Shown in pieces: positions 5,259 through 64,000 of a DNA stretch of 64,000 nucleotides; the first letter of the stretch is position 1; the number at the start of each line of letters is the position of its first letter. The DNA comes from Membranipora membranacea. Its lineage: Eukaryota > Bryozoa > Gymnolaemata > Cheilostomatida > Membraniporidae. The stretch is from the NCBI GenBank assembly GCA_914767715.1, contig OU612072.1, positions 24,366,001 through 24,430,000 of the forward strand. Direction: 5' to 3'. Below the pieces are notes generated by a model. The model was not told the DNA's origin. It saw nothing but the letters and a program-made list of their open reading frames with translations, and made no database searches. Both the position numbers and the translations under genes were made by a program.

Positions 5259-5283
5259 TAACCGATCAGGAGGCGGTGCAGCA

Positions 5284-25211: not shown

Positions 25212-25329
25212 CCTCTTGTCTTCCTGTCAGTTCTACATTCTTGCAGAAGAGCATCTAATGGGTCTTCACAATCCATCCTTCCTACAAAACGGAAACAAAT
25301 ACAACCTGACAGACCATCATCATTAAACA

Positions 25330-26815: not shown

Positions 26816-26820
26816 CTATT

Positions 26821-26979: not shown

Positions 26980-26999
26980 AAATTTGATTACGTTTCTTA

Positions 27000-28690: not shown

Positions 28691-28699
28691 TAATCTGAT

Positions 28700-28876: not shown

Positions 28877-28879
28877 AAC

Positions 28880-39999: not shown

Positions 40000-41930
40000 G
40001 TTAACTCCCTTTATGAGTCTGAGTATTATTTTGATTTTGTTGGACCGATTTCAGTTTTCAGATATGAACAACCTTAAATACGCCTGACAAAACTTAATTG
40101 TTGTTTACACCTTTTCTTTGAATGTAGAAGAGACGGCTGCGTTACCAGTGAAGGAAAAGGAAACATGACTTGAGAACTCTGACATCACCATCCTACTCGG
40201 TGTGTCGAGGTGAGCATGCGAAAGCGTACTTAGTAGAATTACAGTGTATCATTGTGCCGTTATCATGATGTCCACCTCAATACTACTCTTTTCAGGCATG
40301 AACTAGGGCTTGTCACCATTGACTTGATAATACATTATGTCTAGGTTGCTATTAAGCCTATATCACACAAAAAAGTTATAATAACGTATTCTGATTTAAT
40401 ATGATTTGTCTTCTCCTTGTACATGAGAAGACAATTCTTGATTCACACAATATTTACAATCATTCATGTTACCCAATCTAACCATCTTCTTTAGGTTTCG
40501 TTCACCGCTACATCTCAGGATTACATGCAAATAGAACAACAACCATTTGCCACATTCTAATACATATGATATCTCATGGCACTGCTTGAAAGGTGAATAT
40601 GAAAACATAATATTCACAGTGTACTACTGGGATGTTCGACTATTGGTTTTATGTTCACAGTATTCTACCGGAGGCATTGAGAGAATAACTTACTAGATAT
40701 TTTAAGATAACAATTGGAGCTAATTTATGTTGAGCGGCCTGGCTACACAAAACTAAAGAACAATTAGGGTGAGTAAACCTGGACTTTAATGCGGGTAGTG
40801 TGGTAACACAAACCACCACTTTTTTCAAGTGGTACTAATCATTATTATACTTGAATAGCACTATGGGACCAGTATGATAAGGAGGTTATTGCCGATAGCA
40901 ACCACTAATACCAGAACTGTTTCCTAAACATTGCAAGGCATCATTCCAATTTCCAATCACGGCTATGGCGGTTCATGGCCCCTTAAACTCATTTCTCTAT
41001 CCCACCTGAGAAAGATGAGCTCTTACCCTACCATTGATCACTAGATTCTCGGAAAAGCTGAAGAAGGTGAGGATGATATGAATACCAGAGCAGGAGGCAG
41101 AATTAGACAGCATTCCCAGGCTGATCCTTTTAACATGATTCTCAAGAATTCAGATTTGTCACTGAGTCGAGTTATCTTCTGCGTTGTCAGATTAATTAAG
41201 GTATATGATCTCAAAAGGATGTGGGAGTTGAGTACAATCAAGTCTAATACAGTTATCTACATTTTGAGTTGCTCCTCACACACTCCAAACTGCAACAGTA
41301 TATAAATGTGTATTTACGATCCCTTTGCCTACAATGTGAACATACAAGGGGAAGCAACTTTGAATCAGACCATTGGATACAAAATGATCTAGCCGTCGCA
41401 CTGATGCTTTATTTACATAGTTTTTGCATCCAGGTAGATATTAAACCCAAAGTTAGCCTGTCTTGACAAACTTGTTGTGGAGGCAACCCGGCAAGGCAAA
41501 GCAGGTCAACTCTTGCAATTTCTATTTTCTGATCCAATTTATCTTCAAACTGAATAGAGTATTTTAATTTTTGACAAGCTTTGTTGTCGGGTCGGGGGGG
41601 GGGGAGGGGGAAGAAAGGGGTTGGTTATGATTTGCTATTCCTATCATGTTGGCCTCGTAATGTAACGCAGTTTAAGTTGCCGCTGATTCGCTATCGATGA
41701 TAATAAGGAAATTTGACTACCACAATTTATTACCTTCTTCTGTGCGTAATAGAAAGTTTTAATCTTCTGGTGGCATTCAAAAGAGTTTTTCTAATTTATG
41801 TCATAACCACAAAAGATGTAATGAGAATTATTTACAGTGTGCATCACTTTTATATGAATCTTTAACAAAGCCTTCATTTTGTTGTAGTATTTATAGTGAT
41901 TATTGCTCTGGAGAAGTATTTGCTTGTTTG
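40000..41930. other. Intergenic, nothing recognised
   Basis: No exon set or known repeat that I can support. Contains an 11-base G run near 41,594. It probably includes the promoter of the LRR gene starting at 41,939. Confidence 0.4.
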
Positions 41931-41938
41931 CATTAGAC

Positions 41939-41978
41939 ATGGCTCATGTGTTAGAAGAAGATGTTGGAATAAAACAGA
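41939..41978 (+). CDS. LRR gene exon 1 (start codon)
   Basis: ATG in a fair context (AGACATGGC), coding MAHVLEEDVGIKQ, ending ACAGA|GTGAGT. Leaves one base. Chosen as start because an in-phase join to the next exon gives a long open frame. Confidence 0.6.
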
Positions 41979-44900
41979 GTGAGTTGTCATGTGTCATTAC
42001 ATAGCACATTTATTAGATTCTGTAGTGGGTAAAAGCTGGAGGCACTGACATTCATAATTTGGGTGACACAGGGACACTGAATGGAGATTCCTCAAGGTCA
42101 TCATTGACATACACTTCTGAGTCATGATTTCATGTCAATAACTCGAGCAATTACAATTAGATTCGAGTTTGAATTTTGCAATCTACTCAGAAACTTGTCA
42201 TGATCAATTAGTTAGTATCTTTTGAATATCTTTCAAATTTACATCATATTGGTAAACATGATCAGTTTTAGACAATTTCAGCGTTCTCATGTCACCACCA
42301 TTATGAGCCTCAATGAATCTGCAAAGGATGTACCCACACGCCTGTGTAGCACCTAGAAAAAAGCTGTAGCGTATATGAAAGTATCCCAATCCTATAGAAT
42401 GTACAAGAGACATACCACAATGTTATGAGTTGCACATGCAATTGATTTCCGATATATATATATATATATATAATTATTTATGCTTGATTGATTGACATTA
42501 AACACAGCGCAAAGAGCTCAGCAATACATAGTCGGGCTTCATTTTTGAATAAATACAGTTCCCAATTTGAATGAACAAATGTGAATCAATGCGAACGGAA
42601 GTTGACCTAAATGCTAATTCCATGCATCGATTGGCCCTCAAATCGATGTCACACTGACATATTGGAACATAGTGATTGATTATAGTCTGTTATTATTACA
42701 GGATACAGAGTAGCTTGGGAGGAACAGGGTGACAGTAACTGGGATGATCCTGATGTCCGGAGGGACACCTGGAAGCGGTTATTGAACAGCAGTAGAAAGC
42801 TAACTCTAGTAGAGCTGGAGAGACAGACTGCTTCAGCTGGTCAGATAGCTATGTGCTTTAGAAATGATGTACCTGCAGAGTTATCTGAGAGGCTATCTAA
42901 ATCACTGATATGTCTGATGCTCTCTTATATCCCAGAATACAGCCTTAACAGCTTCAGGTTAGGAAGCCTGGTTATTGATGATAATGATTTAATTTTAGCG
43001 ACCAAATGTTCTTTGTCGTAAATTACATTCCGTTTCATAAATGCAGTAAAATGTTGCTGTCGTTTTCACAAGTTTCAAAAATTTGGTTGATGATATTATA
43101 TTATATTACACAGCTTATCAAAAATGACATCACTGAGACATCTAGCACTATGGGGTTGTGATCTGAGTAAAGGTGAAATGCTGAGTCAGATCCTATCAGA
43201 GCTACCACATCTAGAAACTCTGAGTCTCCGTGGTTGCAGCCTGACTGAGATACCGAAGAGGTGAGTTATTCTATAAATCTAGGCTGACACATCTCACTGT
43301 GTGCTGCTGATATATTAATTTAATAAACCTTTTTAGAGTGTATTTCTAATGCATTGTTGTATTGTTCTGATGTCTTTGTTGTTAAAATAATTATAGAAGA
43401 TTTAAGTCAGCGTTACCCAACAGCATCAGAGATTAACCTCCTTGATTCCTACATATCTCTATATCACAGTTGTTATTTGCTGATTGAAATCCAATCCGTT
43501 GAGACACACCAGCCTGACTGGCAGTATTTTGTATCAATAAGACATGGTTATAACATTAATAAAATTGGGCATCAACCTATACCAAGTAAATCTCGCTTAA
43601 GAAATTTGCTTATGAATTAACACATAAGTGGAACGTTGCAATTTATTTTGGTTTGAAACGTAAATCTTTACTAACTTTCATCAATCATCTTTTGTCTCGA
43701 TTTAGTGGCCACCAAAGAAGTTGACCCTCATAATTATTTCTAGATTACGCTTTCTGTGATGTCAGCATCAGAAAATATAATTTCAATCCTGATGAAGTCG
43801 AAGAGATACAATTTTAGCAACAAACTATGCCAGCTGGGACAATTTAAACTTGTTCATAGCTGCTACACCTTTCCACTACCTCAGTAATCTTATACCTAAA
43901 TTGATAACCTGTAGAATTTGTCACAGCTTCGCCAAACAACATATTATTTGTATTCTTATACCCACTGCAATATCGCCAAATGAAATAAAAGACATCCTAT
44001 TCATTTTAAAATAAGTTTTTGAGCTAGGACAACTTACAAGTCTGGTTTTAGTGGCGGAAAGTGAGAATGATTCTCACTATGTTTTAACTTTAATACCCTG
44101 ATTTCAATTATTCTACAGGGATACAGCAATTTACATAATATATACCATTTTGTTATCCAATTTACATGCAACCTAGCTTATGCCAACCGGGAAAATTTAA
44201 AACGGTTAAATGATTCCGGACATCTTGGAGGTTCAGGACTCTGCAGGGGTAAAAGAATATGAAAAAAATGATGAGAAATAGCATATTTTTGGATGTAGCA
44301 CCAGCTTCTGAGTTGGGCATAGACTGAAAACCTGCTGAATACAGTCAAGAGCCAGCTCAGCCATGATTCAAGTCTGAGTGCCAACTTGATAACTATGAAT
44401 GAGTATGCCTGCTATACTGATGCTCTAAGTAATAAATATCAATGTTTGTAAAACAAACATTAGGTTCGGGGGGGGGGGGGACCCTATTCAATAGCACGGA
44501 TCATCATTGTATACGTCTTAGAAACATAGACAGTTGCAAACTGGTGTTATTGTTGGTTAGCTAGAATGAAGATGGCCCGTTGAATAACTAGAGGCAAACC
44601 CAGCTGAAGGAAACAATAGTGGGATGATACAATAGTTTATTCTCATTTGCCTTGTAAATTTTGGCCTGAACACACATTAAATTAGTAATGGGACCATATA
44701 GAATTTGCATGCTTTGTCGAGGATTCCCAGCATATTGTTGGCCACAAGATTCAGAATATCATCAGAAATGGACTGCGTTTGTTTACCCAAATTTTCCTGC
44801 TAAGACAATACAAATAATAATATTGTTTTGATTGAAAATATTGGCATTTTTATAATCAATGTCCTCCTCTGCTGAAAAATAATCCTCTTTACTGTCTTCA

Positions 44901-47900
44901 GAGTCTGATTGAATGTTCCAGTTAGCAGCCATTTGTTGTGAATTCTACCCAGCAAAGGTGTGGCATAAATGCACTCAATTTATGAAACAGAAATGAATTT
45001 CAAAACAAATTTCTGGTCATAGTCATCAGTCGGTCGGCTGTTTATTTTGCTATGTTTAGGAAATCTGCCCTCCCTGGCGCTCACTGAGAAAGCAGAGATC
45101 AAAGACCCAGGCTTGAAATGTGTCTCTTTGAACCATCACCATTTTCAATTGCTGTTTGCTACCTACGGTGATGTTGTTGTCGCATATTCAACCCACTTGG
45201 GGCCGAATACCCAAGCAGAACAGACACTCCTTTGTTATTCATCATTATTCAATTTAATATTGTATGGAGTTGCCCCTTGCCGTTAAAGAAGGGGGCAACT
45301 CCATACAATAAGTGTTTCGTTTAGTTACTCAAGTTTATAAGGCCTATTTGTTTTTGCACTTTGATCAGTTATTCTACTACCTAACTTCACCAATAAACCA
45401 TCGTTGAGATGCCTTTTCGACATTAAAATAAGACTTTATTTTGATTAATGGTGGAAATAAGCTTAAACAGTCATCGTAAAAAATAAACCAAGCTCTATCA
45501 TACCGTCAAAGTTTCCTGTGTAAAAGGTTATCCTCTTGAAAAAACGGCGATTGGATTTAGATTTTTTGTCTGATAAAAAGGTTTAATATACACATTATTT
45601 TTATGCTTGCGATTGAACCTCCAAAAAAGGCGGAGATGGGATGTCTGATAGCTGACAGTAATTTAATTACGCCTAATACATAACAGATTTCGTCAAAAGA
45701 TAAAACTGAGATAGGTCTCTGATTTGAAGTGGTTGACTTGCTCCCATCTTCTTGGTTTTATTCTCTCTATCTGAGATCTCCTGAGCTGTGAGAACTTGAG
45801 ATCTCACATTGTAACAATGAATGATGTTATACCATCATTGACCTTAGAATGGTTTTCTATTTCGTCTGTATGCACATTGAATGAATCACACTTGTGATGG
45901 TATGAACATAATGCCAACATGTAAAATACATCAGATGCGGTTAAGCATGGAGTAATGTGAGAAACGGACTCGGCCGTGTACACAACAAGGTGTAGTTAGC
46001 TCGCTCCGAGTCTACTCTGATGAACGAGTGGGCTTTTCTTTTTAGTTTTAGGTTCTATTGGTTTCTATTCATACCCTCAAACCACCATGTGGGTCGCTCG
46101 GGTACTTTGCAACCTTTGGCCCTGTTTATGACAAAACAGAGGGTGGGCTGCCCCTAAAGTGGGACCCAAGTTGCCCGGAGTCCTCATACTGAGAGTGTGA
46201 TACATCCTAGTAAACTAAAATGCATCCTAGAGGTGAGGCCATGGTGGACCTCCTAATCGTGAGTGTGCAGCAAGCTGCCAGAAACTGAAACAGGCACTAA
46301 TCAGCCATTGGCCATGACACTTTGATCTTAGCCAATAGGCCGAGAAGCGATCTTTGGAGCATCGCAATGACGTGCAGTATCGTTGTAAACCGAAATCTCT
46401 CACTTTTTCATTTAGATTACTTGGCAAGTATGATATGCTGTTTGGCTAATATTTCCATGCCATTTTTGCTTAATCAAAATAAGTGATGAGTTAGACAGAA
46501 TACGGAAAAAGTTGTTACCTGTGCTGCAGAAGATTGCTGTTGCTATTCTATATCAAATTCTATGAAATTATCTGCATCAAAGGGAGATTACTCCGAAAAA
46601 ACACAATAATCATTGCCTTTTCTACCACAGTGAGATGTCGTTGCGTCGCAGTATTTAATGAGGACACTTTTTAATGCTCAGCGTCCAGTCTAGTGTTGTG
46701 TGTTTTGTCTATGGTTAAACCCCTCTGCAAATAGGTTTTTAAGCTTGACACTAACAACTACAGGCCAATATCAATTTTGACAGCAATTTCCGAAATTTGT
46801 GAGAAAGTATTAGCATAACAACTTGACTCCATTTTGAAACGAACAAATTATTCTATGATGATCAATTCGGTTTTAGGGAAGGAAAAAACACATGTTTGGC
46901 AATCTCGAAATTAATGGAAAGCCTTTATGAGAGTTTCAATAGAAGTGAAATCAAAGAAGGTATATTTCTAAACTTTAGTAAAGCTTTTGATCCTATTAAT
47001 CATGATATTTTATTTAAAAAGCTACCATATTATAATTTTACTTCTGGTGCCATAAATTTAATGACTTCCTATCTAACTGACCCTAGCAATTTGTAAAGTT
47101 GGGTGATTGTTGTTCTTCCACAAAAAAAATGAATATTGGTGGGCATCGGTACTGGGAACAAATTTGTTCTTAATTTTCATTAACGACCTAATCAACTCGG
47201 CTCCTCAATTTGAATACATTTTATTTGCAGATGACACAAACATTTTTAGCTCTTATCCAAAAATTTTAAAAGAAAATTTAGTCAACATTGAACAGTGGTG
47301 CTTGGCAAACCGATTAATTCATAATACCAAAAAGACTTTTCAGGTCCTTTTTAAAGCACCTAACAAACAAAACAAGTAGGCGATCCTGAGGTTTTTAATG
47401 TTAGTATTGGAAACAACATGATAGAATCAATCTCTTCTACTAAGTTCTTTGAATTAGAAATTGATAGCAATACTACTTTTAAAAACCATATATCACAGAT
47501 TTGCAAAAAGTTAAACTTCGCTCTTTAATTATCGCGAAGTATCAGACAGTTTTTAAATGTGCCAACAATGATCAATTTATATTATACCTTCTTCTATCCA
47601 CACCTTATTTATTGCATTGAGTTTCGGGGCCATGCAGCCCAATGTGAATTGAAACAAATTTTACTTTTACAGAAAGCTGCATTTCGTTTGATTTTAAAAA
47701 CACCACCTGGAAAACATGTGTCGTCAAATTTTAAGAAGCTCAAAATCATACCACATTCGATGTTATTTGAATATCGTTATATTCTTTTCTTCGTAAAACA
47801 AGTAAATGAAAAGAAATTATACGCTAAATTAAACAACAACAAAAAAACAAGATCAAGTTTGAAATTTCAATCTCTGAGAGCCAACAACTGCAGAGGGGAG

Positions 47901-50900
47901 CGGTCACTGTTGACAAATGGAGTCAACCTGTTCAACAGTTACCTAATGGAGGAGGGTAGCGGGGTAGGCTGCCGGAGGCTTTGTTGGGGGCTGGTGTGTA
48001 GGGGGCATTTGGTAGATGGGGCTTCCCAGTTGATGGTCGGACCGGGATGGTCTCAGCCTTGTTCAATCGAGTGGTCGCTGCTCTAGTCTCGACCTGTCTG
48101 GCGTAGACTATCAGACCACACCGCTGCATTTTTATCTCAATTTTAATTCATCATTTTACTAAAAAATTTAAAGCAGAAGCCTTACCCAAAAACAAATTTA
48201 AGCTGTCCTGAAGACCCTTTACAATAGCGATAGGCCTGTTGTTAACCGTCCCCTCTACTGTGAACTGTTCGACCCTTATTGTCCACCCTACTGTAAATTA
48301 TCCTCTGTATTGTACTGAATGTCCCATCTCAAAGACCCATCTATTTATGATCATTCTTAAAGGGCCCTTTCATTTAGCTAGTGCATGCCATGATATTCTG
48401 GCTGCCACTGTGACGACCTTGGCTGTATCAGGTGATTGCGGTTGTAACTCATCCACATAATAAATGAGTGTTAAAAGCCTCTCTGACGTAGAATACCTGA
48501 TAGGTCTAGTTCTCGCGCACACTTGTTGTTTTTTGAAGCTCTTATGATTGGAAGAGGTCTAGTTTGTAGAAAGGTGCACTAAGCCAATGGAGAATAGGTT
48601 TGCTTAGCACAGCACAGAACAAACCGCCCTTATAGTGCCTCACCATCAGCTACAACACGTGAAAACAATCGGTGATATCTGAGATGTAACAGGTTCCCTG
48701 AGCAGACTTTTGTTGGACCCACTTTCAAATACTTTTTTGAGCATTCCTGCTCTCTCGACAGCTGACTTTCAGTAATGGTTGAGTTTGAGATCACCTATTG
48801 AGTTCCCTACTTACTTTTAGTATTTTTACATCATCAGTCTCTATTTCTCCCTACTATTTCTCACACCAGTATCATTGTTCTTCGCTCTGCGCTGTCTAAT
48901 CCTATCAAAAAAATATGCTGTCCACCTTTAATCTTGTAGTTGCACATCTGGCCCTCACAGCAAATCCCTCTATCATTTTAATCTTGTATCTCTTAACCTT
49001 TATTTAATCCTTCCTACTTCCTGACCTAGTGGAGAAATCTCATTGCCATTATTATAGTGAAAAATTACATTTACTGTTTGAAGCATTACTGAGATGTCTT
49101 CACTGAAGCAGCTAGTCTACAGTATTTTATCTCCCCTGTCACAGATTCACATTCAAATGATGATCCACTTACAGTATGACATTGAGCCTAGCACGGGTTT
49201 GCCTAAGACAGTAACCAGGCTGCTCTAGTTGCACTAGAAATTATAAAAAAACAGTATTGGAAAACGGTAGCGTAGTCAAAGATATTTTGGTGTTAACCCG
49301 TGACCGGGGAGATAACATACTGTAGACCCTTCTTGACCCTTGATTTTCACACTTCAAATAAGGTTACATCATTCAATAATGTCCTTGTGCGAAAAAATTT
49401 ACTTTTTTTGTTCATTGTAATGGCAAAGCTTTGATATGAACAGTATTTGTTTTTTGCTATCCTAGACACTTTAACATGATAATATTAAAACAAAAATTAG
49501 GGCATCAATCAGTCAACAATAAAAATTTGAATGCAAGTGTACAATGAAGAAAGAGCCTGCACAATTTCCTTACACTGAAAACAAGAACCACTTAAGATTC
49601 TGGTCACATTTCAAGTAACCGCTTAATACATGTGCTTGTTGGACAAATGTGACCCAATTTATTAACTGTATAGCATGGATACCAATGGTGGTGGTAAAAT
49701 ACATAGCATGGTTATTCGGTGAGATATGCAATCAGTATAAGACTTTGTGTCAGGATCTGAATAAAAGCTAAAGATCTGGCAGCTTTTACATTATGCATTA
49801 CACATACACACACACATTTATTTCCCAGTAACAGCATTGAATAACTCAGGCAAGCTGCTTGACAAAAGTCAAGGGTCAGCTATTTATGATTCTGAACTTG
49901 TGGACCGAAAATGACTATTAGTAGGAGTTGCCTGCTTTGTATATATCGCCAGGCAGTTCTAAGTCATGTTCTTTTATTTTTCATTCTGGAAAAATTTGAG
50001 AGGTGTAAATGCAACTATAATATATTTGAACTATTTCAAGTGATTCTCTCAATTGAGGCACACAGTCGTTAGTATTCAGAATAAGATATAGTGAAACATT
50101 GCGTTTTCTGTCTGCAGCATCACTGAGATGTCCTCACTGAAACAGCTAGACTTATTTGGTTATGATCTGAGTGGAGATGATAAGCTGAATCAGACACTTT
50201 CAGAACTGACTAATCTTGAGATACTAAATCTGAGCCGGTGTAAGCTGAGGGAGATACCTGAAAGGTAGTGTGTTATTGTTTGCTTTTTATTTTCTTCAAT
50301 TTCTAATCCCTAATTACTAATTTGATAATGTGGATACTGGTTACACTCGTTGATACAATTATATTGAAACCAGAATTAGAATCAGTCAGGAAGAATGACT
50401 CTATCAATTAATTCAAAAACGTTTGACCAAATTTTTCATTCTGAACACACAATTAAATGTAACTAGAACCACTTAGGATTCTGGTCACATCCACTTCCAA
50501 GTAACTGTTAATTTATTGAGATTTTTGATAATAAGTAACACATTATATTAACTATATACCCTATAGGAGTTTAGTTTTCGCGGCATTTAGGATTCACTTT
50601 TTGCGTTGTTGCCTAGGTTGCGAAATTTATTGTATCTTAAATTAAACTCACTCACGATAATTTCATAAAGAATGTACAGTCATACAGGAATACACCTTAC
50701 ATAAGCATGCAAGCTAGTGTGGTGTAGTGATCTAAGTGTCTGCGTTGCAAATACATGAAGATTTATGCCCTGGGTTCGAATCCCAGCTTGGACATTTTTT
50801 TTAATTTTCACTAGTAACCTACTAGCGAAATTTAGTACTAGTGAAATTTAGTACCAGGTCCAGATAGCGAAATTAAACTCTAGCTAAATTAAACTCCTAT

Positions 50901-53900
50901 AGGGTAGTATTTATGTTAAAGTAAGCTTGGTATCATGATGCATTGTTCCGTTCTGATGGTATTTGTTATCATTACCCTGACTCCTACACACCTGTATACC
51001 ACAAGGGAAGGTTGAATTTCAGCCGTCTGTTTTTATTTTGTCACTTGAATTTTTTTCTTTGTTTTGTGCCATCAGTTGGACACACAAGCCTGACTAGCCT
51101 TGAAAGATAAAGAAGCACGGCTTTGATCAATCTAATCAACACCAAATCAACAATAATAATAACCTGCCGTGAATCGGGCAACATGCGAATTCGAGTAACT
51201 CATGCTGAATAAATAACCTTTTGAATAAAAACAAAATGAAATACTTCAAATTTAGTTAAATATGGTGTGTAAACACATAGTGTTTCATATCAATCTTTCA
51301 GTTTATCTTCAATAAGATTAACTGGCCCCCTTTTGAATTTATTCACCGCTACACAAGTATTTATCCAATTCACCGTTATAATGGTTGTATTGATGCCCAA
51401 TATCAGATCTATGGATATATGAAGATATAATTATAAATATGAGTTGCCTGTCTTGCCGATATCATCGGGTAAAGTGACTCTTTTATGTACTGAACTCTTA
51501 TCACGATGGGAATATGTTATTACAACAAAAAATATTTGAACTTTTTAAAGGGATTCTCTCAGTTTAGTCACACAATCAACAGTTATAAGAGCCAATCATA
51601 AGTCCAGCCACATTGTCTAAATATGTAAGTAAATCACTGAATTATCAATCTCACTGAATAAATAAGAAATAGTGAAACATTGCATTTTCTGTCTGCAGCA
51701 TCACTGAGATGTCCTCACTGAAACACCTACACTTATCTGGTAATGATCTGAGTGGAGATTATAAGCTGAGTCGGACACTTTCAAAACTCACTAATCTGGA
51801 GTTACTAAATCTGAGAGGGTGTTATCTGAGGGAGATACCTGAAAGGTAATGTGTTATTGTTTGCTTTTAATTTTCTTCAATATCTAATCTTTTATTATTA
51901 ATTTGGTAACGTGGATACTGGTTATACTCTTTAATATGATAATATTAAAAAAAAAATTAGGACATCAATCAGTGAACAATATAAATTTGAATGCAAGTGT
52001 ACAAGGTAGAAAGAGCCTGAGCAATTTCCTTACACTGAAAACAAGAACCACTTAGGATTCAGGTCACTTTTCAAGTAACCGCTTAATAAATGATTTATTT
52101 TATTTCCCAGTAACAACCTTGAATAACTCAGGCAAGCGGCTTGGCAAAAGTTAAGGGTCAGCTATTTATGATTCTTAACATGTGGACCAAAAATGGTTAT
52201 GAGTAGGAGTTGCCTGCTTTGTAAAAATCACCAGGCAGTACTAAGTGATGTTCTTTTATTTTTCATTGGGGAAAATTTTGAGAGGTGTAAATGCAATTAT
52301 GATTTGAACTATTTCAAGTGATTCTCTCAATTGAGGCACACAGTTGTTAGTATTCAGAGCCATCCATAAGTCTGGCCATATCTGCTTACAAGTAAATCAC
52401 TGAATTATTAAGCTCATTGAATAAATAAGATAAATAATGAAACATTGTATTTTCTGTCTGCAGCATCACTAAGATGTCCTCACTGAAACAGCTACACTTA
52501 TCTGGTGATGATCTGAGTGGAGATTATATGCTGAGTCGGACACTTTCAAAACTCACTAATCTGGAGTTACTTGATCTGAGCGCGTGTAAGCTGAGGGAGA
52601 TACCTGAAAGGTAATGTGTTATTGTTTGCTTTTAATTTTCTTCAATTTCTAAACCCTTATTTCTTATTTGGTATTATGGATACACTCATTAATACAATAA
52701 TATTGAAAGCATAATTAAGACAATATCTATCAGTCAGGAAGAATGACTCTTACAATTAATTCGAAACCGTTTGACCAATTTTTTTATTCTGAACACACAA
52801 TTGACAGCAACTAGAACCACTTAGGATTCTGGTCACATCCACTTCCAAGTGACTGTTAAATCGTTAAAATTTTTGATAATAAGTAACACATTATATTAAC
52901 TATATAGTATTTATGTTAAGACAAGGTCGGTAGTGTAATGCATTGTTCTATTGAGATAGTATTTGTTACAATTACCCTGATTCCTCTACACATGTATACC
53001 ACTAGGGAATGTCGCATTTCAACTGCCAGTTTTTATTTTGTCATTTGAATTTTTTTCTTTGTTTTGTGCCATTAGTTGGACACAATAGCCTGACTAGCCT
53101 TGGAAGATAAAGAAGCATGAATTTGATCAATTTATTCAATACCAAATCAACAATAATAATGACCTCTTGTGAATCGGACGACATGCGAATCGGAGTAACT
53201 CATGCTGAATAAATAACCTTTTGAATAAAAACGAAATGACACAGTGTTTTCTTTGGAATTTATTCACCGCTACACAAGTATATATCCAATTCACCGGTAT
53301 AAAGGTTGTACTGATGTCCAATATCATATCTATTGATCTATGAAAATATGATTATAAATAGGAGTTGCCTGTCTTGCGGATATCACCAGGTAAAGTGACT
53401 TTTTTATGTACTGAACCCTTTTTCACAAACGAATACTTGAACCTTTCCAAAGGATTCTCTCAGTCTAGTCACAACATCAACAGTTACAAGAGCATATCAT
53501 AAGTCCAGCCACATTATCCGAATAAGTGAGTAAATCACTGAATTATCAATCTCACTGAATAAAAAATACAGTGGGACATTGCATTTTCTGTCTGCAGCAT
53601 TACTAAGATGTCCTCACTGAAACAGCTTGACTTAGCCAATAATGATCTAAGTAGTGACGGTAACCTGAGTCAGACATTGTCAGCACTCACTAACCTGGAG
53701 ATACTAGATCTGAGAAAATGTAACCTGAGGGAGATACCCGAAAGGTAATGTGTTATTTTTTACTTTCCAATTTTTTTGGCTTCTAATCCATTGTATGTAT
53801 GCGGCTATATGGATACTGGTTACACTCTTTTGTATGATACTACTTGAACCAAACTCAGGACATTCAATGTCTATCGATCAACAATAAAACTATGTAAATT

Positions 53901-56900
53901 CAGAGTATAGTATTTTCATAAGTTAGAATGAAACAAGCCTGTAAAAAGATCTTTGAAAGTTTCTGAGCAATTTTCTTAATCTATAGACACGATTGATAGT
54001 AATTAAAACCACTTATGATTCTGGTCACATCCACTTCTAAGTAACTGCTTTATTAATAAGATTTTAGAAATTAAGTAAAACTTTATATTTACTATTTGTA
54101 GTATTGTTACTGTTAAAATAAGTGTAATGCATTGTTCTGTTCATTATAGTATTGATTAAATTTCCCTGATTCCTACACACCTGTATACCACAGGGGAAGG
54201 TCGTATTTCAGCCGTCTGCTATTATTTTGTCATCTGAATTTATTTCATTTTTTTGTGCCATCAGTTGGACACTCAGGCCTGACTAGCCTTGAAAGATAAA
54301 GAGGCACGATTTTTATCAATTTAATCAACACCAAATCAACAATAATAATGACCTCTTGTGAATCGGGCGACATGCGAATCGGAGTAACTCATGCTGAACA
54401 AATAACCTTTTGAATAAAAACAAAATGACACATTTAAAGTTTAGTTAAATATGGTGTGTAAACACATAGTGTTTCCTATCAATCAGTTTATCTTCAATAA
54501 GATAAGCTTGCCCCCTTTGGAATTTATTGACCGCTTCACAAGTATATATTCAATTCATCGTTGTAAAAGTTGTACTGATGTCCAATATCAGATCTATTGA
54601 TCTATGAAAATATGATTATAAATAGGAGTTGCCTGTCTTGCGGATATCACCAGGTAAAGTGACTTTTTTATGTACTGAACCCTTTTTCACAGAGGAATTA
54701 CTTGAACCTTTCCAAGGGATTCTCTCAGTCTAGTCACAACATCAAAAGTTATAAGAGCATATCATAAGTCCAGCCACATTATCCAAATGAGTGGGTAAAT
54801 CACTGGATTATCACTGAATAAAAAATACAGTGGGACAATGCATTTTCTGTCTGCAGCATTACTAAGATGTCCTCACTGGAACAGCTTGACTTAGTCGGTA
54901 ATGATCTAAGTAGTGACGGTAACCTGAGTCAGACATTGTCAGCACTCACTAACCTGGAGATACTAGATCTGAGAGCATGTAACCTGAGGGAGATACCTGA
55001 AAGGTAATGTGTTATTTTTTACTTTCCAATTTTTTTGGCTTCTAATCAATTAGTATGTATGCGGCTATATGGATACTGGTTACACTCTTTTGTATGATAA
55101 TATTTGAACCACACTCAGGACATTCAATGTCTATCAATCAACAATAAAACTATGTAAATTCAGAGTATAGTATTTTCAAAAGTTAGAATGAAACAAGGCT
55201 GAAAAAAGATGTTTGAAAGTTGCTGGGCAATTTTCTTACTCTATAGACACGATTGATAGCAACTAAAACCACTTATGATTCTGGTCACATCCACTTCTAA
55301 GTAACTGCTTTATTAATACGATTTTAGAAATTAAGTAATACTTTATATTTACTATTTGTAGTATTGTTACTGTTAAAATAAGTGTAATGCATTGTTTTGT
55401 TCATTATAGTATTGATTAAATTTCCCTGATTCCTACACATCTGTATACCACAAGGGAATGTCATATTTCAACTGCCAGTTTTTATTTTGTCATTTGAATT
55501 TTTTTCTTTGTTTTGTGACATTAGTTGGACAAACAAGCCTGACTAGCCTTGAAAATTAAAGAGGCACGATTTTGATCAATTTTATCAATACCAAATCAAC
55601 AATAATAATGACCTCTTGTGAATCGGGCGACATGCGAATCGGAGTAACTCATGTTGAACAAATAACCTTTTGAATAAAAACAAAATGACACATTTAAAGT
55701 TTAGTTAAATATGGTGTGTAAACACATAGTGTTTCCTATCAATCAGTTTATCTTCAATAAGATAAGCTTGCCCCCTTTGGAATTTATTGACCGCTTCACA
55801 AGTATATATTCAATTCATCGTTGTAAAAGTTGTACTGATGTCCAATATCAGATCTATTGATCTATGAAAATATGATTATAAATAGGAGTTGCCTGTCTTG
55901 CGGATATCCCCAGGTAAAGTGACTTTTTTATGTACTGAACCCTTTTTCACAGAGGAAATACTTGAACCTTTCCAAGGGATTCTCTCAGTCTAGTCACAAC
56001 ATCAAAAGTTATAAGAGCATATCATAAGTCCAGCCACATTATCCAAATAAGTGAGTAAATCACTGGATTATCACTGAATAAAAAATACAGTGGGACAATG
56101 CATTTTCTGTCTGCAGCATTACTAAGATGTCCTCACTGAAACAGCTTGACTTAGCCAATAATGATCTAAGTAGTGACGGTAACCTGAGTCAGACATTGTC
56201 AGCACTCACTAACCTGGAGATACTAGATCTGAGAATATGTAACCTGAGGGAGATACCCGAAAGGTAATGTGTTATTTTTTACTTTCCAATTTTTTTGGCT
56301 TCTAATCCATTGTATGTATGCGGCTATATGGATACTGGTTACACTCTTTTGTATGATAATACTTGAACCAAACTCAGGAGATTCAATATCTATCAATCAA
56401 CAATAAAACTATGTAAATTCAGAGTATAGTATTTTCAAAAGTTAGAATGAAACAAGGCTGAAAAAAGATGTTTGAAAGTTGCTGGGCAATTTTCTTACTC
56501 TATAGACACGATTGATAGCAACTAAAACCACTTATGATTCTGGTCACATCCACTTCTAAGTAACTGCTTTATTAATACGATTTTAGAAATTAAGTAATAC
56601 TTTATATTTACTATTTGTAGTATTGTTACTGTTAAAATAAGTGTAATGCATTGTTTTGTTCATTATAGTATTGATTAAATTTCCCTGATTCCTACACATC
56701 TGTATACCACAGGGGAAGGTCATATTTCAACTGCCAGTTTTTATTTTGTCATTTGAATTTTTTTCTTTGTTTTGTGACATTAGTTGGACAAACAAGCCTG
56801 ACTAGCCTTGAAAATTAAAGAGGCACGATTTTGATCAATTTTATCAATACCAAATCAACAATAATAATGACCTCTTGTGAATCGGGCGACATGCGAATCG

Positions 56901-59900
56901 GAGTAACTCATGCTGAACAAATAACCTTTTGAATAAAAACAAAATGACACATTTAAAGTTTAGTTAAATATGGTGTGTAAACACATAGTGTTTCCTATCA
57001 ATCAGTTTATCTTCAATAAGATAAGCTTGCCCCCTTTGGAATTTATTGACCGCTTCACAAGTATATATTCAATTCATCGTTGTAAAAGTTGTACTGATGT
57101 CCAATATCAGATCTATTGATCTATGAAAATATGATTATAAATAGGAGTTGCCTGTCTTGCGGATATCCCCAGGTAAAGTGACTTTTTTATGTACTGAACC
57201 CTTTTTCACAGAGGAAATACTTGAACCTTTCCAAGGGATTCTCTCAGTCTAGTCACAACATCAAAAGTTATAAGAGCATATCATAAGTCCAGCCACATTA
57301 TCCAAATAAGTGGGTAAATCACTGGATTATCACTGAATAAAAAATACAGTGGGACAATGCATTTTCTGTCTGCAGCATTACTAAGATGTCCTCACTGAAA
57401 CAGCTTGACTTAGTCTGTAATGATCTAAGTAGTGACGGTAACCTGAGTCAGACATTATCAGTACTCACTAACCTGGAGATACTAGATCTGAGAGGATGTA
57501 ACCTGAGGGAGATACCTGAAAGGTAATGTGTTATTGTTTACTTTCCAATTTTTTTGGCTTCTAATCCATTAGTATGTATGCGGCTATATGGATACTGGTT
57601 ACACTCTTTTGTATGATAATACTTGAAAAAAAACCAGGACATTCAATGTCTATCAATCAACAATAAAACTATGTAAATTCAGAGTATAGTATTTTCAAAA
57701 GTTAGAATGAAACAAGGCTGAAAAAAGATGTTTGAAAGTTGCTAGGCAATTTTCTTACTCTATAGACACGATTGATAGCAACTAAAACCACTTATGATTC
57801 TGGTCACATCCACTTCTAAGTAACTGCTTTATTAATACGATTTTAGAAATTAAGTAATACTTTATATTTACTATTTGTAGTATTGTTACTGTTAAAATAA
57901 GTGTAATGCATTGTTTTGTTCATTATAGTATTGATTAAATTTCCCTGATTCCTACACATCTGTATACCACAAGGGAATGTCATATTTCAACTGCCAGTTT
58001 TTATTTTGTCATTTGAATTTTTTTCTTTGTTTTGTGACATTAGTTGGACAAACAAGCTTGACTAGCCTTGAAAATTAAAGAGGCACGATTTTGATCAATT
58101 TTATCAATACCAAATCAACAATAATAATGACCTCTTGTGAATCGGGCGACATGCAAATCGGAGTAACTAATGCTGAACAAATAACCTTTTGAATAAAAAC
58201 AAAATGACACATTTAAAGTTTAGTTAAATATGGTGTGTAAACACATAGTGTTTCCTATCAATCAGTTTATCTTCAATAAGATAAGCTTGCCCCCTTTGGA
58301 ATTTATTGACCGCTTCACAAGTATATATTCAATTCATCGTTGTAAAAGTTGTACTGATGTCCAATATCAGATCTATTGATCTATGAAAATATGATTATAA
58401 ATAGGAGTTGCCTGTCTTGCGGATATCCCCAGGTAAAGTGACTTTTTTATGTACTGAACCCTTTTTCACAGAGGAAATACTTGAACCTTTCCAAGGGATT
58501 CTCTCAGTCTAGTCACAACATCAAAAGTTATAAGAGCATATCGTAAGTCCAGCCACATTATCCAAATAAGTGAGTAAATCACTGGATTATCACTGAATAA
58601 AAAATACAGTGGGACAATGCATTTTCTGTCTGCAGCATTACTAAGATGTCCTCACTGAAACAGCTTGACTTAGTCTGTAATGATCTAAGTAGTGACGGTA
58701 ACCTGAGTCAGACATTGTCAGCACTCACTAACCTGGAGATACTAGAACTGAGTTGGTGTGGGCTGAGGGAGATACCTGAAAGGTAATGTGTTATTGTTTA
58801 CTTTCCAATTTTTTTGGCTTCTAATCCATTAGTATGTATGCGGCTATATGGATACTGGTTGCACTCTTTTGTATGATAATACTTGAAAAAAAACCAGGAC
58901 ATTCAATGTCTATCAATCAACAATAAAACTATGTAAATTCAGAGTATAGTATTTTCAAAAGTTAGAATGAAACAAGGCTGAAAAAAGATGTTTGAAAGTT
59001 GCTGGGCAATTTTCTTACTCTATAGACACGATTGATAGCAACTAAAACCACTTATGATTCTGGTCACATCCACTTCTAAGTAACTGCTTTATTAATACGA
59101 TTTTAGAAATTAAGTAATACTTTATATTTACTATTTGTAGTATTGTTACTGTTAAAATAAGTGTAATGCATTGTTCTGTTCATTATAGTATTGATTAAAT
59201 TTCCCTGATTCCTACACATCTGTATACCACAAGGGAATGTCATATTTCAACTGCCAGTTTTTATTTTGTCATTTGAATTTTTTTCTTTGTTTTGTGACAT
59301 TAGTTGGACAAACAAGCCTGACTAGCCTTGAAAATTAAAGAGGCACGATTTTGATCAATTTTATCAATACCAAATCAACAATAATAATGACCTCTTGTGA
59401 ATCGGGCGACATGCGAATCGGAGTAACTCATGCTGAACAAATAACCTTTTGAATAAAAACAAAATGACACATTTAAAGTTTAGTTAAATATGGTGTGTAA
59501 ACACATAGTGTTTCCTATCAATCAGTTTATCTTCAATAAGATAAGCTTGCCCCCTTTGGAATTTATTGACCGCTTCACAAGTATATATTCAATTCATCGT
59601 TGTAAAAGTTGTACTGATGTCCAATATCAGATCTATTGATCTATGAAAATATGATTATAAATAGGAGTTGCCTGTCTTGCGGATATCCCCAGGTAAAGTG
59701 ACTTTTTTATGTACTGAACCCTTTTTCACAGAGGAAATACTTGAACCTTTCCAAGGGATTCTCTCAGTCTAGTCACAACATCAAAAGTTATAAGAGCATA
59801 TCATAAGTCCAGCCACATTATCCAAATAAGTGAGTAAATCACTGGATTATCACTGAATAAAAAATACAGTGGGACATTGCATTTTCTGTCTGCAGCATTT

Positions 59901-62900
59901 CTAAGATGTCCTCACTGAAAAAGCTTGAATTAGCCTATAATGATCTAAGTAGTGACGGTAACCTGAGTCAGACATTATCAGTACTCACTAACCTGGAGAT
60001 ACTAGATCTGAGAGGATGTAACCTGAGGGAGATACCTGAAAGGTAATGTGTTATTGTTTACTTTCCAATTTTTTTGGTTTAATCCATTAGTATGTATGCG
60101 GCTATATGGATACTGGTTACACTCTTTTGTATGATAATACTTGAAAAAAAACCAGGACATTCAATGTCTATCAATCAACAATAAAACTATGTAAATTCAG
60201 AGTATAGTATTTTCAAAAGTTAGAATGAAACAAGGCTGAAAAAAGATGTTTGAAAGTTGCTGGGCAATTTTCTTACTCTATAGACACGATTGATAGCAAC
60301 TAAAACCACTTATGATTCTGGTCACATCCACTTCTAAGTAACTGCTTTATTAATACGATTTTAGAAATTAAGTAATACTTTATATTTACTATTTGTAGTA
60401 TTGTTACTGTTAAAATAAGTGTAATGCATTGTTCTGTTCATTATAGTATTGATTAAATTTCCCTGATTCCTACACATCTGTATACCACAGGGGAAGGTCA
60501 TATTTCAACTGCCAGTTTTTATTTTGTCATTTGAATTTTTTTCTTTGTTTTGTGACATTAGTTGGACAAACAAGCCTGACTAGCCTTGAAAATTAAAGAG
60601 GCACGATTTTGATCAATTTTATCAATACCAAATCAACAATAATAATGACCTCTTGTGAATCGGGCGACATGCGAATCGGAGTAACTCATGCTGAACAAAT
60701 AACCTTTTGAATAAAAACAAAATGACACATTTAAAGTTTAGTTAAATATGGTGTGTAAACACATAGTGTTTCCTATCAATCAGTTTATCTTCAATAAGAT
60801 AAGCTTGCCCCCTTTGGAATTTATTGACCGCTTCACAAGTATATATTCAATTCATCGTTGTAAAAGTTGTACTGATGTCCAATATCAGATCTATTGATCT
60901 ATGAAAATATGATTATAAATAGGAGTTGCCTGTCTTGCGGATATCCCCAGGTAAAGTGACTTTTTTATGTACTGAACCCTTTTTCACAGAGGAAATACTT
61001 GAACCTTTCCAAGGGATTCTCTCAGTCTAGTCACAACATCAAAAGTTATAAGAGCATATCATAAGTCCAGCCACATTATCCAAATAAGTGAGTAAATCAC
61101 TGGATTATCACTGAATAAAAAATACAGTGGGACAATGCATTTTCTGTCTGCAGCATTACTAAGATGTCCTCACTGAAACAGCTTGTCTTAGTCGGTAATG
61201 ATCTAAGTAGTGACGGTAACCTGAGTCAGACATTGTCAGCACTCACTAACCTGGAGATACTATATCTGAGTTGGTGTGGGCTGAGGGAGATACCTGAAAG
61301 GTAATGTGTTATTGCTTACTTTCCAATTTTTTTGGCTTCTAATCCATTAGTATGTATGCGGCTATATGGATACTGGTTACACTCTTTTGTATGATAATAC
61401 TTGAAAAAAAACCAAGACATTCAATGTCTATCAATCAACAATAAAACTATGTAAATTCAGAGTATAGTATTTTCAAAAGTTAGAATGAAACAAGGCTGAA
61501 AAAAGATGTTTGAAAGTTGCTGGGCAATTTTCTTACTCTATAGACACGATTGATAGCAACTAAAACCACTTATGATTCTGGTCACATCCACTTCTAAGTA
61601 ACTGCTTTATTAATACGATTTTAGAAATTATGTAATACTTTATATTTACTATTTGTAGTATTGTTACTGTTAAAATAAGTGTAATGCATTGTTCTGTTCA
61701 TTATAGTATTGATTAAATTTCCCTGATTCCTACACATCTGTATACCACAAGGGAATGTCATATTTCAACTGCCAGTTTTTATTTTGTCATTTGAAATTTT
61801 TTCTTTGTTTTGTGACATTAGTTGGACAAACAAGCCTGACTAGCCTTGAAAATTAAAGAGGCACGATTTTGATCAATTTTATCAATACCAAATCAACAAT
61901 AATAATGACCTCTTGTGAATCGGGCGACATGCGAATCGGAGTAACTCATGCTGAACAAATAACCTTTTGAATAAAAACAAAATGACACATTTAAAGTTTA
62001 GTTAAATATGGTGTGTAAACACATAGTGTTTCCTATCAATCAGTTTATCTTTAATAAGATAAGCTTGCCCCCTTTGGAATTTATTGACCGCTTCACAAGT
62101 ATATATTCAATTCATCGTTGTAAAAGTTGTACTGATGTCCAATATCAGATCTATTGATCTATGAAAATATGATTAGAAATAGGAGTTGCCTGTCTTGCGG
62201 ATATCCCCAGGTAAAGTGACTTTTTTATGTACTGAACCCTTTTTCACAGAGGAAATACTTGAACCTTTCCAAGGGATTCTCTCAGTCTAGTCACAACATC
62301 AAAAGTTATAAGAGCATATCATAAGTCCAGCCACATTATCCAAATAAGTGAGTAAATCACTGGATTATCACTGAATAAAAAATACAGTGGGACATTGCAT
62401 TTTCTGTCTGCAGCATTTCTAAGATGTCCTCACTGAAAAAGCTTGAATTAGCCGATAATGATCTAAGTAGTGACGGTAACCTGAGTCAGACATTATCAGT
62501 ACTCACTAACCTGGAGATACTAGATCTGAGAGGATGTAACCTGAGGGAGATACCTGAAAGGTAATGTGTTATTGTTTACTTTCCAATTTTTTTGGCTTCT
62601 AATCCATTAGTATGTATGCGGCTATATGGATACTGGTTACACTCTTTTGTATGATAATACTTGAAAAAAAACCAGGACATTCAATGTCTATCAATCAACA
62701 ATAAAACTATGTAAATTCAGAGTATAGTATTTTCAAAAGTTAGAATGAAACAAGGCTGAAAAAAGATGTTTGAAAGTTGCTGGGCAATTTTCTTACTCTA
62801 TAGACACGATTGATAGCAACTAAAACCACTTCTGATTCTGGTCACATCCACTTCTAAGTAACTGCTTTATTAATACGATTTTAGAAATTAAGTAATACTT

Positions 62901-63820
62901 TATATTTACTATTTGTAGTATTGTTACTGTTAAAATAAGTGTAATGCATTGTTCTGTTCATTATAGTATTGATTAAATTTCCCTGATTCCTACACATCTG
63001 TATACCACAAGGGAATGTCATATTTCAACTGCCAGTTTTTATTTTGTCATTTGAATTTTTTTCTTTGTTTTGTGACATTAGTTGGACAAACAAGCCTGAC
63101 TAGCCTTGAAAATTAAAGAGGCACGATTTTGATCAATTTTATCAATACCAAATCAACAATAATAATGACCTCTTGTGAATCGGGCGACATGCGAATCGGA
63201 GTAACTCATGCTGAACAAATAACCTTTTGAATAAAAACAAAATGACACATTTAAAGTTTAGTTAAATATGGTGTGTAAACACATAGTGTTTCCTATCAAT
63301 CAGTTTATCTTCAATAAGATAAGCTTGCCCCCTTTGAAATTTATTGACCGCTTCACAAGTATATATTCAATTCATCGTTGTAAAAGTTGTACTGATGTCC
63401 AATATCAGATCTATTGATCTATAAAAATATGATTATAAATAGGAGTTGCCTGTCTTGCGGATATCCCCAGGTAAAGTGACTTTTTTATGTACTGAACCCT
63501 TTTTCACAGAGGAAATACTTGAACCTTTCCAAGGGATTCTCTCAGTCTAGTCACAACATCAAAAGTTATAAGAGCATATCATAAGTCCAGCCACATTATC
63601 CAAATAAGTGAGTAAATCACTGGATTATCACTGAATAAAAAATACAGTGGGACAATGCATTTTCTGTCTGCAGCATTACTAAGATGTCCTCACTGAAACA
63701 GCTTGACTTAGTCGGTAATGATCTAAGTAGTGACGGTAACCTGAGTCAGACATTATCAGCACTCACTAACCTGGAGATACTAGATCTGAGTAGGTGTGGG
63801 CTGAGGGAGATACCTGAAAG
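41939..63820 (+). CDS. LRR-array gene, 5' part (15 exons seen, 3' end outside window)
   Basis: Exons: 41939-41978, 42702-42957, 43114-43260, then twelve of 147 bp at 50118, 51699, 52464, 53598, 54857, 56117, 57376, 58636, 59896, 61154, 62414 and 63674. All junctions are GT-AG and in phase, and the frame stays open, giving about 735 codons so far. Exons 1-2 code an N-terminal region I do not recognise (MAHVLEEDVGIKQ; then a WEEQGDSNWDDPDVRRDTWK acidic start and a Leu-rich helix-like end). No signal peptide is visible. Each later exon is phase 2-2 and codes 49 residues, two LRRs: a ~28-residue type (SLKQLDLVGNDLSSDGNLSQ) and a ~21-residue type (LTNLEILDLRGCNLREIPE). Symmetric phase lets exon number change freely. 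Vertebrate NLR and ribonuclease-inhibitor genes also use two-LRR exons (171 bp), so an intracellular recognition role is plausible but inferred. Confidence 0.85.
42454..42474. repeat. (TA)n microsatellite
   Basis: About ten TA dinucleotides in the first intron of the LRR gene. Confidence 0.9.
42702..42957 (+). CDS. LRR gene exon 2 (N-terminal region)
   Basis: 85 residues. It begins YRVAWEEQGDSNWDDPDVRR, continues TWKRLLNSSRKLTLVELERQ, and ends with a Leu-rich SERLSKSLICLMLSYIPEY. It may be a capping helix region before the LRRs. No family recognised; no NACHT, TIR or kinase motifs. Acceptor TATTATTACAG, donor TTCAG|GTTAGG. Confidence 0.7.
43114..43260 (+). CDS. LRR exon 1 (founder-like, divergent)
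   Basis: Codes KMTSLRHLALWGCDLSKGEM and LPHLETLSLRGCSLTEIPK. Same length and phase as the array exons but clearly older in sequence. Separated from the array by 6.9 kb. Confidence 0.85.
43261..46050. other. Left part of the 6.9-kb LRR-gene intron
   Basis: No further LRR exon found between 43,260 and the relic at 49,084. Contains a 13-base G tract near 44,468 and the palindromic dispersed repeat at 45.26-45.57 kb. Short open frames here lack family resemblance. Confidence 0.5.
45258..45309. repeat. Palindrome at the end of a dispersed repeat
   Basis: Arms ATTGTATGGAGTTGCCCC and GGGGCAACTCCATACAAT surround a ~15-base loop. The adjoining 45,310-45,570 matches the reverse complement of 15,480-15,700. 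Confidence 0.85.
46060..46353 (-). pseudogene. U2 snRNA-headed retrosequence or SINE
   Basis: Read on the minus strand from 46,353 it begins ATCGCTTCTCGGCCTATTGG then CTAAGATCAAAGTGT, essentially the first ~34 bases of U2 snRNA, including its branch-site-pairing neighbourhood. The sequence then diverges completely from U2 (no GTAGTATC branch-recognition segment or Sm site). It is therefore not a working U2 gene. It is either a chimeric retrotranscript or a SINE with a U2-derived head; snRNA-headed SINEs are known in some vertebrates. The downstream body limit is approximate. Confidence 0.7.
46739..48190 (+). mobile_element. LINE remnant in the large LRR-gene intron
   Basis: Degraded reverse transcriptase: NNYRPISIL near 46,755, DQFGFREGKNTC near 46,860, NFSKAFDPINHDI near 46,970, then a gap, FADDTNIF near 47,225, AFRLILKTPP near 47,670 and a C-terminal FNSYLM. 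Multiple stops and frame changes. From motif style it belongs to a different lineage from the 5.3-kb LINE. Same orientation as the host gene. Confidence 0.82.
49084..49125 (+). pseudogene. Relic LRR exon (truncated)
   Basis: CATTACTGAGATGTCTTCAC then TGAAGCAGCTAG match the start of the array exons (ITEMSSLKQL), after which similarity ends. The acceptor has decayed from CTGCAG to TTGAAG. The ~900 bp that follow match the intron found at 51.9-52.4 kb. This marks a dead unit at the left edge of the array. Confidence 0.7.
50118..50264 (+). CDS. LRR exon 2
   Basis: Variable cores: QLDLFGYDLSGDD and ILNLSRCKLREIPE. Donor is AAAG|GTAGTG, weaker than the GTAATG of the others. Confidence 0.85.
50569..50904 (+). 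mobile_element. MITE with TA target duplication carrying a tRNA-like module
   Basis: Termini CCCTATAGGAGTTTAGTTTT and, inverted at the right, CCCTATAGGAGTTTAATTT. Flanked by TA on both sides. The paralogous intron at about 52,890-52,910 preserves the empty site (ACTATATAGTATTTATG), showing exactly what was inserted (336 bp) and that TA was duplicated, as in Tc1/mariner-type insertion. No transposase. Confidence 0.9.
50711..50800 (+). ncRNA. tRNA-derived Pol III module inside the TA MITE
   Basis: Box-A-like GTGGTGTAGTGATCTAAG, a tRNA-Cys-like anticodon loop (TTGCAAA), a perfect box B (GGGTTCGAATCCC) and a T-run terminator. The T arm pairs perfectly (CTGGG/CCCAG); acceptor and anticodon stems are degraded. 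Likely a SINE-like passenger and not a functional tRNA. Confidence 0.7.
51699..51845 (+). CDS. LRR exon 3
   Basis: Variable cores: HLHLSGNDLSGDY and LLNLRGCYLREIPE. Confidence 0.87.
52464..52610 (+). CDS. LRR exon 4
   Basis: Variable cores: QLHLSGDDLSGDY and LLDLSACKLREIPE. Preceded by a shorter intron of the older type. Confidence 0.87.
53598..53744 (+). CDS. LRR exon 5
   Basis: Variable cores: QLDLANNDLSSDG and ILDLRKCNLREIPE. First exon of the homogeneous part of the array. Confidence 0.9.
54857..55003 (+). CDS. LRR exon 6
   Basis: Variable cores: QLDLVGNDLSSDG and ILDLRACNLREIPE; uniquely has SLEQL in place of SLKQL. Confidence 0.9.
56117..56263 (+). CDS. LRR exon 7
   Basis: Variable cores: QLDLANNDLSSDG and ILDLRICNLREIPE. 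First half identical to exon 5. Confidence 0.9.
57376..57522 (+). CDS. LRR exon 8
   Basis: Variable cores: QLDLVCNDLSSDG, TLSVL and ILDLRGCNLREIPE. Confidence 0.9.
58636..58782 (+). CDS. LRR exon 9
   Basis: Variable cores: QLDLVCNDLSSDG, TLSAL and ILELSWCGLREIPE. Confidence 0.9.
59896..60042 (+). CDS. LRR exon 10
   Basis: Variable cores: KLELAYNDLSSDG, TLSVL and ILDLRGCNLREIPE; starts ISKM in place of ITKM. Confidence 0.9.
61154..61300 (+). CDS. LRR exon 11
   Basis: Variable cores: QLVLVGNDLSSDG, TLSAL and ILYLSWCGLREIPE. Confidence 0.9.
62414..62560 (+). CDS. LRR exon 12
   Basis: Variable cores: KLELADNDLSSDG, TLSVL and ILDLRGCNLREIPE; differs from exon 10 by a single base (Tyr to Asp). 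Confidence 0.9.
63674..63820 (+). CDS. LRR exon 13
   Basis: Variable cores: QLDLVGNDLSSDG, TLSAL and ILDLSRCGLREIPE. The following intron continues to the window end with the same sequence as its predecessors, so more units are expected. Confidence 0.9.
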
Positions 63821-64000
63821 GTAATGTGTTATTGTTTACTTTCCAATTTTTTTGGCTTCTAATCCATTAGTATGTATGCGGCTATATGGATACTGGTTAC
63901 ACTCTTTTGTATGATAATACTTGAAAAAAAACCAGGACATTCAATGTCTATCAATCAACAATAAAACTATGTAAATTCAGAGTATAGTATTTTCAAAAGT

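Follow-up and report, generated by a model that had tools for sequence, protein, structure and literature searches.

A tandem array of 147-bp leucine-rich repeat exons in Membranipora membranacea and the contrast between its exons and introns

Described systems and the layout of the locus

Among described systems, brown-algal LRR-ROCO genes, first described by Zambounis et al. 2012 as cited in PMC11378527, carry tandem 72-bp phase-2 exons that each encode one leucine-rich repeat (LRR); passages of that paper report alternative splicing and diversifying selection at four concave positions, and the products were proposed to be immune receptors (PMC11378527). According to passages of PMC6564038, the LRR genes of Tetrahymena are made of tandem 90-bp phase-2 exons, with intragenic exon-intron repeats that go back to clonal expansions of recent date; often there is an adjacent LINE-like element, and T. 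thermophila introns measure about 257 bp. The main text of that paper does not use the term 'positive selection'. Zinc-finger units of PRDM9 are described in part of PMC3890296 as homogenised save for the recognition residues, which escape, and the part of PMC3236188 cited here reports that paralogous exons of arthropod Dscam arrays showed no gene conversion and, with power that the study itself calls low, no positive selection.

In the 64,000-nucleotide stretch of Membranipora membranacea DNA analysed here (the window; GC 37.4%), nine 147-bp LRR exons lie on the plus strand at 53,598-63,820 in tandem units of about 1.26 kb (spacing 1,258-1,260 bp). The array extends to the window end, where the gene runs off it. 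Older exons precede it, and the features are as follows.

42702..42957, plus strand: probable exon upstream of the LRR exon at 43,114; open between AG and GT, boundaries set by eye
43114..43260, plus strand: diverged 147-bp LRR exon; 52% amino-acid identity to exon 7
49084..49118, plus strand: 35-bp remnant of an LRR exon 5' end
50118..50264, plus strand: older LRR exon; in frame, splice sites kept, 83% identity to exon 7
51699..51845, plus strand: older LRR exon; open frame, AG/GT, phase 2
52464..52610, plus strand: older LRR exon; open frame, AG/GT, phase 2
53598..53744, plus strand: LRR exon, unit 1; two LRRs in 147 bp, open, flanked by AG and GT, in phase 2 at its junctions
53745..63673, plus strand: stretch holding the eight introns (1,111-1,113 bp) between the nine exons; those of units 2-8 about 1% apart
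54857..55003, plus strand: LRR exon, unit 2; by exon comparison, splice sites and phase
56117..56263, plus strand: LRR exon, unit 3; 1 base from exon 1, the following introns 41/1,112 apart
57376..57522, plus strand: LRR exon, unit 4, mosaic; LRR 1 like unit 5, LRR 2 like units 6 and 8
58636..58782, plus strand: LRR exon, unit 5, type A; by exon comparison
59896..60042, plus strand: LRR exon, unit 6, type B; by exon comparison
61154..61300, plus strand: LRR exon, unit 7, type A; by exon comparison
62414..62560, plus strand: LRR exon, unit 8, type B; by exon comparison
63674..63820, plus strand: LRR exon, unit 9, type A; intron continues beyond the window end

All 12 exons from 50,118 on are 147 bp long, open, flanked by AG and GT and in phase 2, and at their junctions the terminal AG is completed by the first C of the next exon to give Ser. 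An open frame by itself is weak evidence of function, as with 15-25% of neutral substitutions 29-44% of exons would still be open. When joined, the four exons from 51,699 to 54,857 exceed the Pfam cut-offs for LRR_4 (75.9 bits, cut-off 27), LRR_8 (69.8, 27), LRR_1 (61.4, 20.6) and LRR_14 (65, 40), and by these profile scores the array exons belong to leucine-rich repeat proteins. The sequence thus shows a repeat domain built of 147-bp exons with two LRRs each, separated by phase-2 introns, as part of an LRR-protein gene, and exons so uniform allow units to be gained or lost with the frame left intact. A protein database search (8,000 candidates scored) had 915 matches, and the 120 of them that were listed are all generic LRR proteins, with identities of 25-43%; a single LRR exon inside longer proteins had no match among 60 candidates. 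Viral and prokaryotic contigs had no informative match, the sole hits being three distant bacterial LRR loci at 39-50% identity. The probable exon at 42,702-42,957, whose end phase, on boundaries set by eye, equals that of the LRR exons, has no Pfam or PDB match and a poor predicted fold (pLDDT 63.9); it could be a cap or a link to an effector domain.

The array shares with the brown-algal genes, as far as those passages describe them, its uniform phase-2 tandem LRR exons (12/12 here) and positive selection on concave residues, which here carries a tree caveat and is not significant in weaker tests; it differs in having exons of 147 bp with two LRRs rather than 72 bp with one. No ROC-COR domain was found on the plus strand at 20,000-30,000 and 31,000-57,100 at E<=0.1, and the gene extends beyond the window. 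Exact-length tandem LRR exons, phase-2 introns, recent intragenic exon-intron repeats and a nearby LINE-like element are features that the locus has in common with the Tetrahymena arrays as reported, but its exons are 147 bp and its introns longer, in place of the 90 bp and about 257 bp described there. PRDM9 is a coding minisatellite that is not known to have introns between its units. As in the account of PRDM9 given above, the units are homogenised except at the putative recognition residues, but unlike that DNA-binding protein the LRR units contain 1.1-kb introns, which provide a neutral yardstick. Like the Dscam arrays, the locus consists of same-length tandem exons encoding a recognition domain, a putative one here; unlike in that study, as far as cited, both gene conversion and positive selection are indicated. 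Nakashima et al. (1993, 1995) are said to have seen exons changing faster than introns among duplicated snake-venom phospholipase A2 genes, which are whole genes, whereas the LRR array consists of exons within one gene. Lamprey VLR donor LRR cassettes are assembled by copying and not by splicing; unlike these, all 12 exons have an acceptor, a donor and a common phase. The locus thus resembles the ROCO, Tetrahymena and PRDM9 systems, with an exon size of its own, and its kind is already known: the earlier note had proposed a new candidate recognition-receptor diversification locus, but comparable loci (brown-algal ROCO, Tetrahymena, PRDM9) are in print, so that the kind is not new. For a 147-bp LRR exon array as such, no description came up among the papers listed in searches of an open-access library.

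Divergence of exons and introns

The earlier note had compared the neighbouring exons at 61,154 and 62,414, and its counts hold: 15 of 147 bases differ between them, against 10 of 1,113 between the introns that follow (61,301-62,413 and 62,561-63,673), and just one of the 15 is a silent-codon difference (column 82, TTG/TTA, Leu). The tenfold exon excess that it put forward applies to some neighbours but not as an average: the 21 possible pairings within units 2-8 give a mean divergence of 6.4% for exons and 0.98% for introns, a 6.5-fold ratio (range 1.3-22.7). Among adjacent pairs, exon/intron ratios run from 4.0 to 21.2 for pairs 2-3 to 7-8 (Fisher p 0.003 to 3e-10), and the excess is seen in six of the seven adjacent pairs among units 1-8, the remaining pair, 1-2, having none (exon 7/147, intron 46/1,112, ratio 1.15, p 0.66). 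Between units 6 and 8 the exon and the intron have changed to almost the same degree (1/147 and 6/1,111), and in pair 1-3 it is the intron that differs more (41/1,112, exon 1/147). The unit 1 intron lies 3.7-4.8% from the other seven. Because of this exceptional intron and the near-identity of exons 1 and 3, unit 1 was excluded from the main contrast, which covers units 2-8, with figures including unit 1 also given; the unit 9 intron (180 bases in the window) was excluded from intron counts. Variable columns in units 2-8 number 20/147 in the exon and 32/1,113 in the intron, a difference that chance does not explain (Fisher p 3e-7). The exon-intron contrast in the LRR array is real and is hereby confirmed.

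The order A-B-A-B-A of the last units, with 0.5-0.6% intron differences between like units, could result from allelic copies or mosaics placed in tandem by the assembler, for instance from two joined haplotypes. Each of the eight introns is nevertheless separated from every other by at least 5 differences, which speaks against exact duplication during assembly; upstream of the array lie older units whose divergence is plain, and the contrast would persist even with some units allelic. We therefore find an assembly artefact highly doubtful.

A more serious alternative is that ancient exon variants were retained while the introns were repeatedly homogenised by conversion or unequal crossing-over, in which case no faster change of the exons is required. 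Several features of the array fit it: exons 1 and 3 are near-identical although their introns stand far apart; exon and intron distances are uncorrelated (Mantel r -0.05, 0.10, 0.13; p 0.49, 0.26, 0.36); and sharing between units is commoner in exons, where 14/20 variable columns are informative, than in introns, where 9/32 are (p 0.004). Silent exon divergence also exceeds intron divergence over the 28 pairs of units 1-8 (pS 4.6%, intron 1.8%), as the earlier note had named among the findings that would tell against it, while the dN/dS near or below 1 that it had coupled to this is not what we see, pN being 6.9% and pN/pS about 1.5. The evidence on exposed codons and on silent steps given below speaks against this alternative, which we regard as rather unlikely.

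Intron variation is uneven. Of the 32 intron columns that vary in units 2-8, 14 fall within the first 147 intron bases (55004-55150 and their equivalents in later units), a number approaching the exon count, against 3.7 in the mean 147-base intron window; five of the 14 amount to a single difference that sets units 1-3 apart from units 4-8. Raised variation may extend slightly beyond the exon into the start of the intron.

Exposed codons, time scale and exchange

By the standard numbering of the LRR motif, LxxLxLxxNxL, the exposed set was defined as ten positions over the two LRRs (x3, x5, x7, x8 and x10). Variable columns in units 2-8 amount to 15/30 in exposed codons, 5/114 in the rest of the exon and 32/1,113 in introns. 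Non-exposed exon sites are thus about as variable as introns (p 0.38), and exposed codons are not (p 1.5e-14). Expressed as diversity relative to the intron in the same units, the ratio is 24.5 for exposed codons (bootstrap 14.3-42.3) and 1.95 (0.45-4.41) for the remaining exon sites. Amino-acid variation affects eleven codons, eight of which fall within the ten exposed positions (p 1.7e-5), and the alternative usual set (xxLxLxx) likewise contains 8/11; framework positions vary at 0/12 among the nine exons. Of the 20 variable exon columns, 18 sit in amino-acid-changing codons, and both purely silent ones (82 and 142) lie outside the exposed codons. AlphaFold, given the 48-residue exon with an alignment of the 13 window exons, places strands at residues 9-13 and 35-39 (mean pLDDT 82.9, pTM 0.56), in which residues 9, 11, 13, 37 and 39 alternate with Leu 10, 12, 36 and 38, invariant in 13/13 exons. 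Judged from this alternation, residues 9, 11, 13, 37 and 39 would lie opposite the buried leucines. The concentration of changes on the putative concave face that had been claimed from the sequence is therefore borne out by the codon counts, with which the predicted strands agree. A Foldseek search with the exon fold gave a weak LRR-protein match (best E 0.14), and its 131 matches include other folds.

The near-intron variation of the non-exposed exon sites bears on the idea that the exons only seem fast and that the introns are unusually constrained, by RNA genes or splicing signals. Across units 2-8 the 1.1-kb introns do share about 99% identity, but the flanks of the three older exons differ by 12-45% when their 150 upstream and 120 downstream bases are set against those of two recent units. 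RNA genes in the introns are disfavoured, with no Rfam family at gathering score in the window and none at E<=0.1 in 50,000-64,000. We consider constrained introns exceedingly improbable.

The time scale is best seen in the two exon types, A (exons 5, 7 and 9) and B (exons 6 and 8). Between A and B, exposed codons differ by 38%, other exon sites by 2.3% and introns by 0.67% (four pairs, units 5-8), and within type A (units 5, 7 and 9; three pairs) the values are 11.1% for exposed and 0.6% for other sites, with 0.63% for the intron (pair 5-7 only). Old and recent exons differ by 36% at exposed codons and by 15% at other exon sites. Exposed positions thus reach a divergence ceiling while intron DNA barely changes, and the disappearance of the contrast at depth, together with the divergent flanks, argues for saturation and against constrained introns. 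Were ancient variants simply retained, the A-B divergence at exposed codons, which equals that of old paralogues, should not be accompanied by 2.3% in place of 15% at the other sites. At codons 1, 10, 17, 20, 27 and 32, where old and recent exons have silent-only differences, the old codon is present in no recent exon, which makes the three old exons unlikely donors.

Exchange between units is also indicated. The four-gamete test fails for 9 of the 78 pairings of informative columns in the exon, which takes at least two exchange events within it, barring parallel change, and unit 4 resembles unit 5 in its first half and units 6 and 8 in its second. The earlier note had offered conversion that homogenises introns but not exons; its exchange component finds support here, although by itself it does not account for A and B differing at only 2.3% of other sites. 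A plain duplication of an A-B dimer was considered and rejected: it accounts for the alternation of exons but not for the introns, in which an A-B pattern is confined to a single column situated 19 bases ahead of the exon that follows.

Probable selection on a putative recognition surface and its alternatives

Another explanation is targeted mutation, somatic or germ-line, of the beta-strand codons, with purifying selection clearing framework changes. Change is indeed sharply localised and clustered, and includes multi-base codon changes, for example in codons 14, 40 and 42. However, mutation alone should leave 38.6% silent steps in the variable segments, where 2/22 were found (P 0.002), in segments (codons 8-16 and 34-43) picked after inspection of the data, by a count using paths that favour silent steps, and with kappa assumed to be 2.5; a hand-set lower bound of 0/22 gives P 2e-5. 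Weaker tests of silent depletion are not significant (concave codons alone 2/21, P 0.12; all codons P 0.09). In addition, the reverse-transcriptase matches in 41,000-51,001 (plus strand) and the relatives of the match at 6,606 carry the common RVT_1 domain. We judge targeted mutation highly improbable. Retained variants, too, are hard to reconcile with so few linked silent changes in these segments, and selection on amino acids fits best.

Codon models point the same way but are given little weight, since they presuppose one tree, an assumption that exchange violates: M2a against M1a gives 2dlnL 28.4 for the nine exons (sites 14, 40 and 42); for a set of twelve exons that leaves out 43,114 the value is 21.7 (sites 13, 14, 40 and 42). 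Part of PMC3890296 rejects such models for PRDM9 on the same ground of exchange against tree. Path-averaged values at concave codons are pS 12% and pN 26%, and this pS far exceeds intron divergence. At depth, the exposed codons show no dN/dS excess: between old and recent exons the ratio is 0.84 at exposed and 0.37 at non-concave codons, and among the three old exons it is 0.84 at the other, non-exposed codons too.

From the exon-intron and silent-nonsilent contrasts, themselves observed directly, we infer selection, and we do so on one genome copy. We think it likely that the locus is an LRR-gene array in which selection acts on exposed codons, together with duplication and exchange, and not a new mutation machine. 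The last nine units have recently arisen or been homogenised through tandem duplication and exchange, as the roughly 1% distances between introns 2-8 show. Selection in the young units would favour new residues at exposed beta-strand positions, with the framework retained, and exchange between units reshuffles half-exon segments, as the incompatible columns show. Selection would in this way act on ordinary germ-line mutation, together with duplication and exchange, to diversify the concave face. As for function, the most likely role would be that of a putative recognition protein, plausibly in immunity or self/non-self discrimination. Of the three readings that the earlier note had offered, strong diversifying selection appears the best supported, given the exposed-codon excess, the 18/20 columns and the class with dN/dS above 1; exchange between units stands beside it, and targeted mutation is disfavoured. 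To a dedicated, localised diversification process, such as short-tract exchange directed at the beta-strand codons alone, or the use of exons in varying combinations, so that recognition surfaces would differ from one individual to another, we allow a slim chance.

With 1.1 kb of intron in every unit, each exon carries a built-in neutral clock, on which the exposed codons of A and B have reached the divergence of old paralogues (38% against 36%) with less than 1% change in the introns. If confirmed in individuals, this would give a direct measurement of the rate at which selection and exchange rebuild a recognition surface.

Other elements occur in the window. The reverse-transcriptase search returned 42 proteins, and two reverse-transcriptase-bearing remnants resembling non-LTR retrotransposons lie at 5248-7679, where the nearest relative is a protein from mgnify/ena at 66% identity, and at 46827-48083, with an LRR exon on either side at 43,114 and 50,118. 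The tRNA search found none. A 39-bp minisatellite occupies 30020-32873 (about 73 copies, 95% match), with weaker arrays continuing to 37252; because 39 is divisible by three, up to 794 codons can be read on its minus strand with no stop, which is probably fortuitous.
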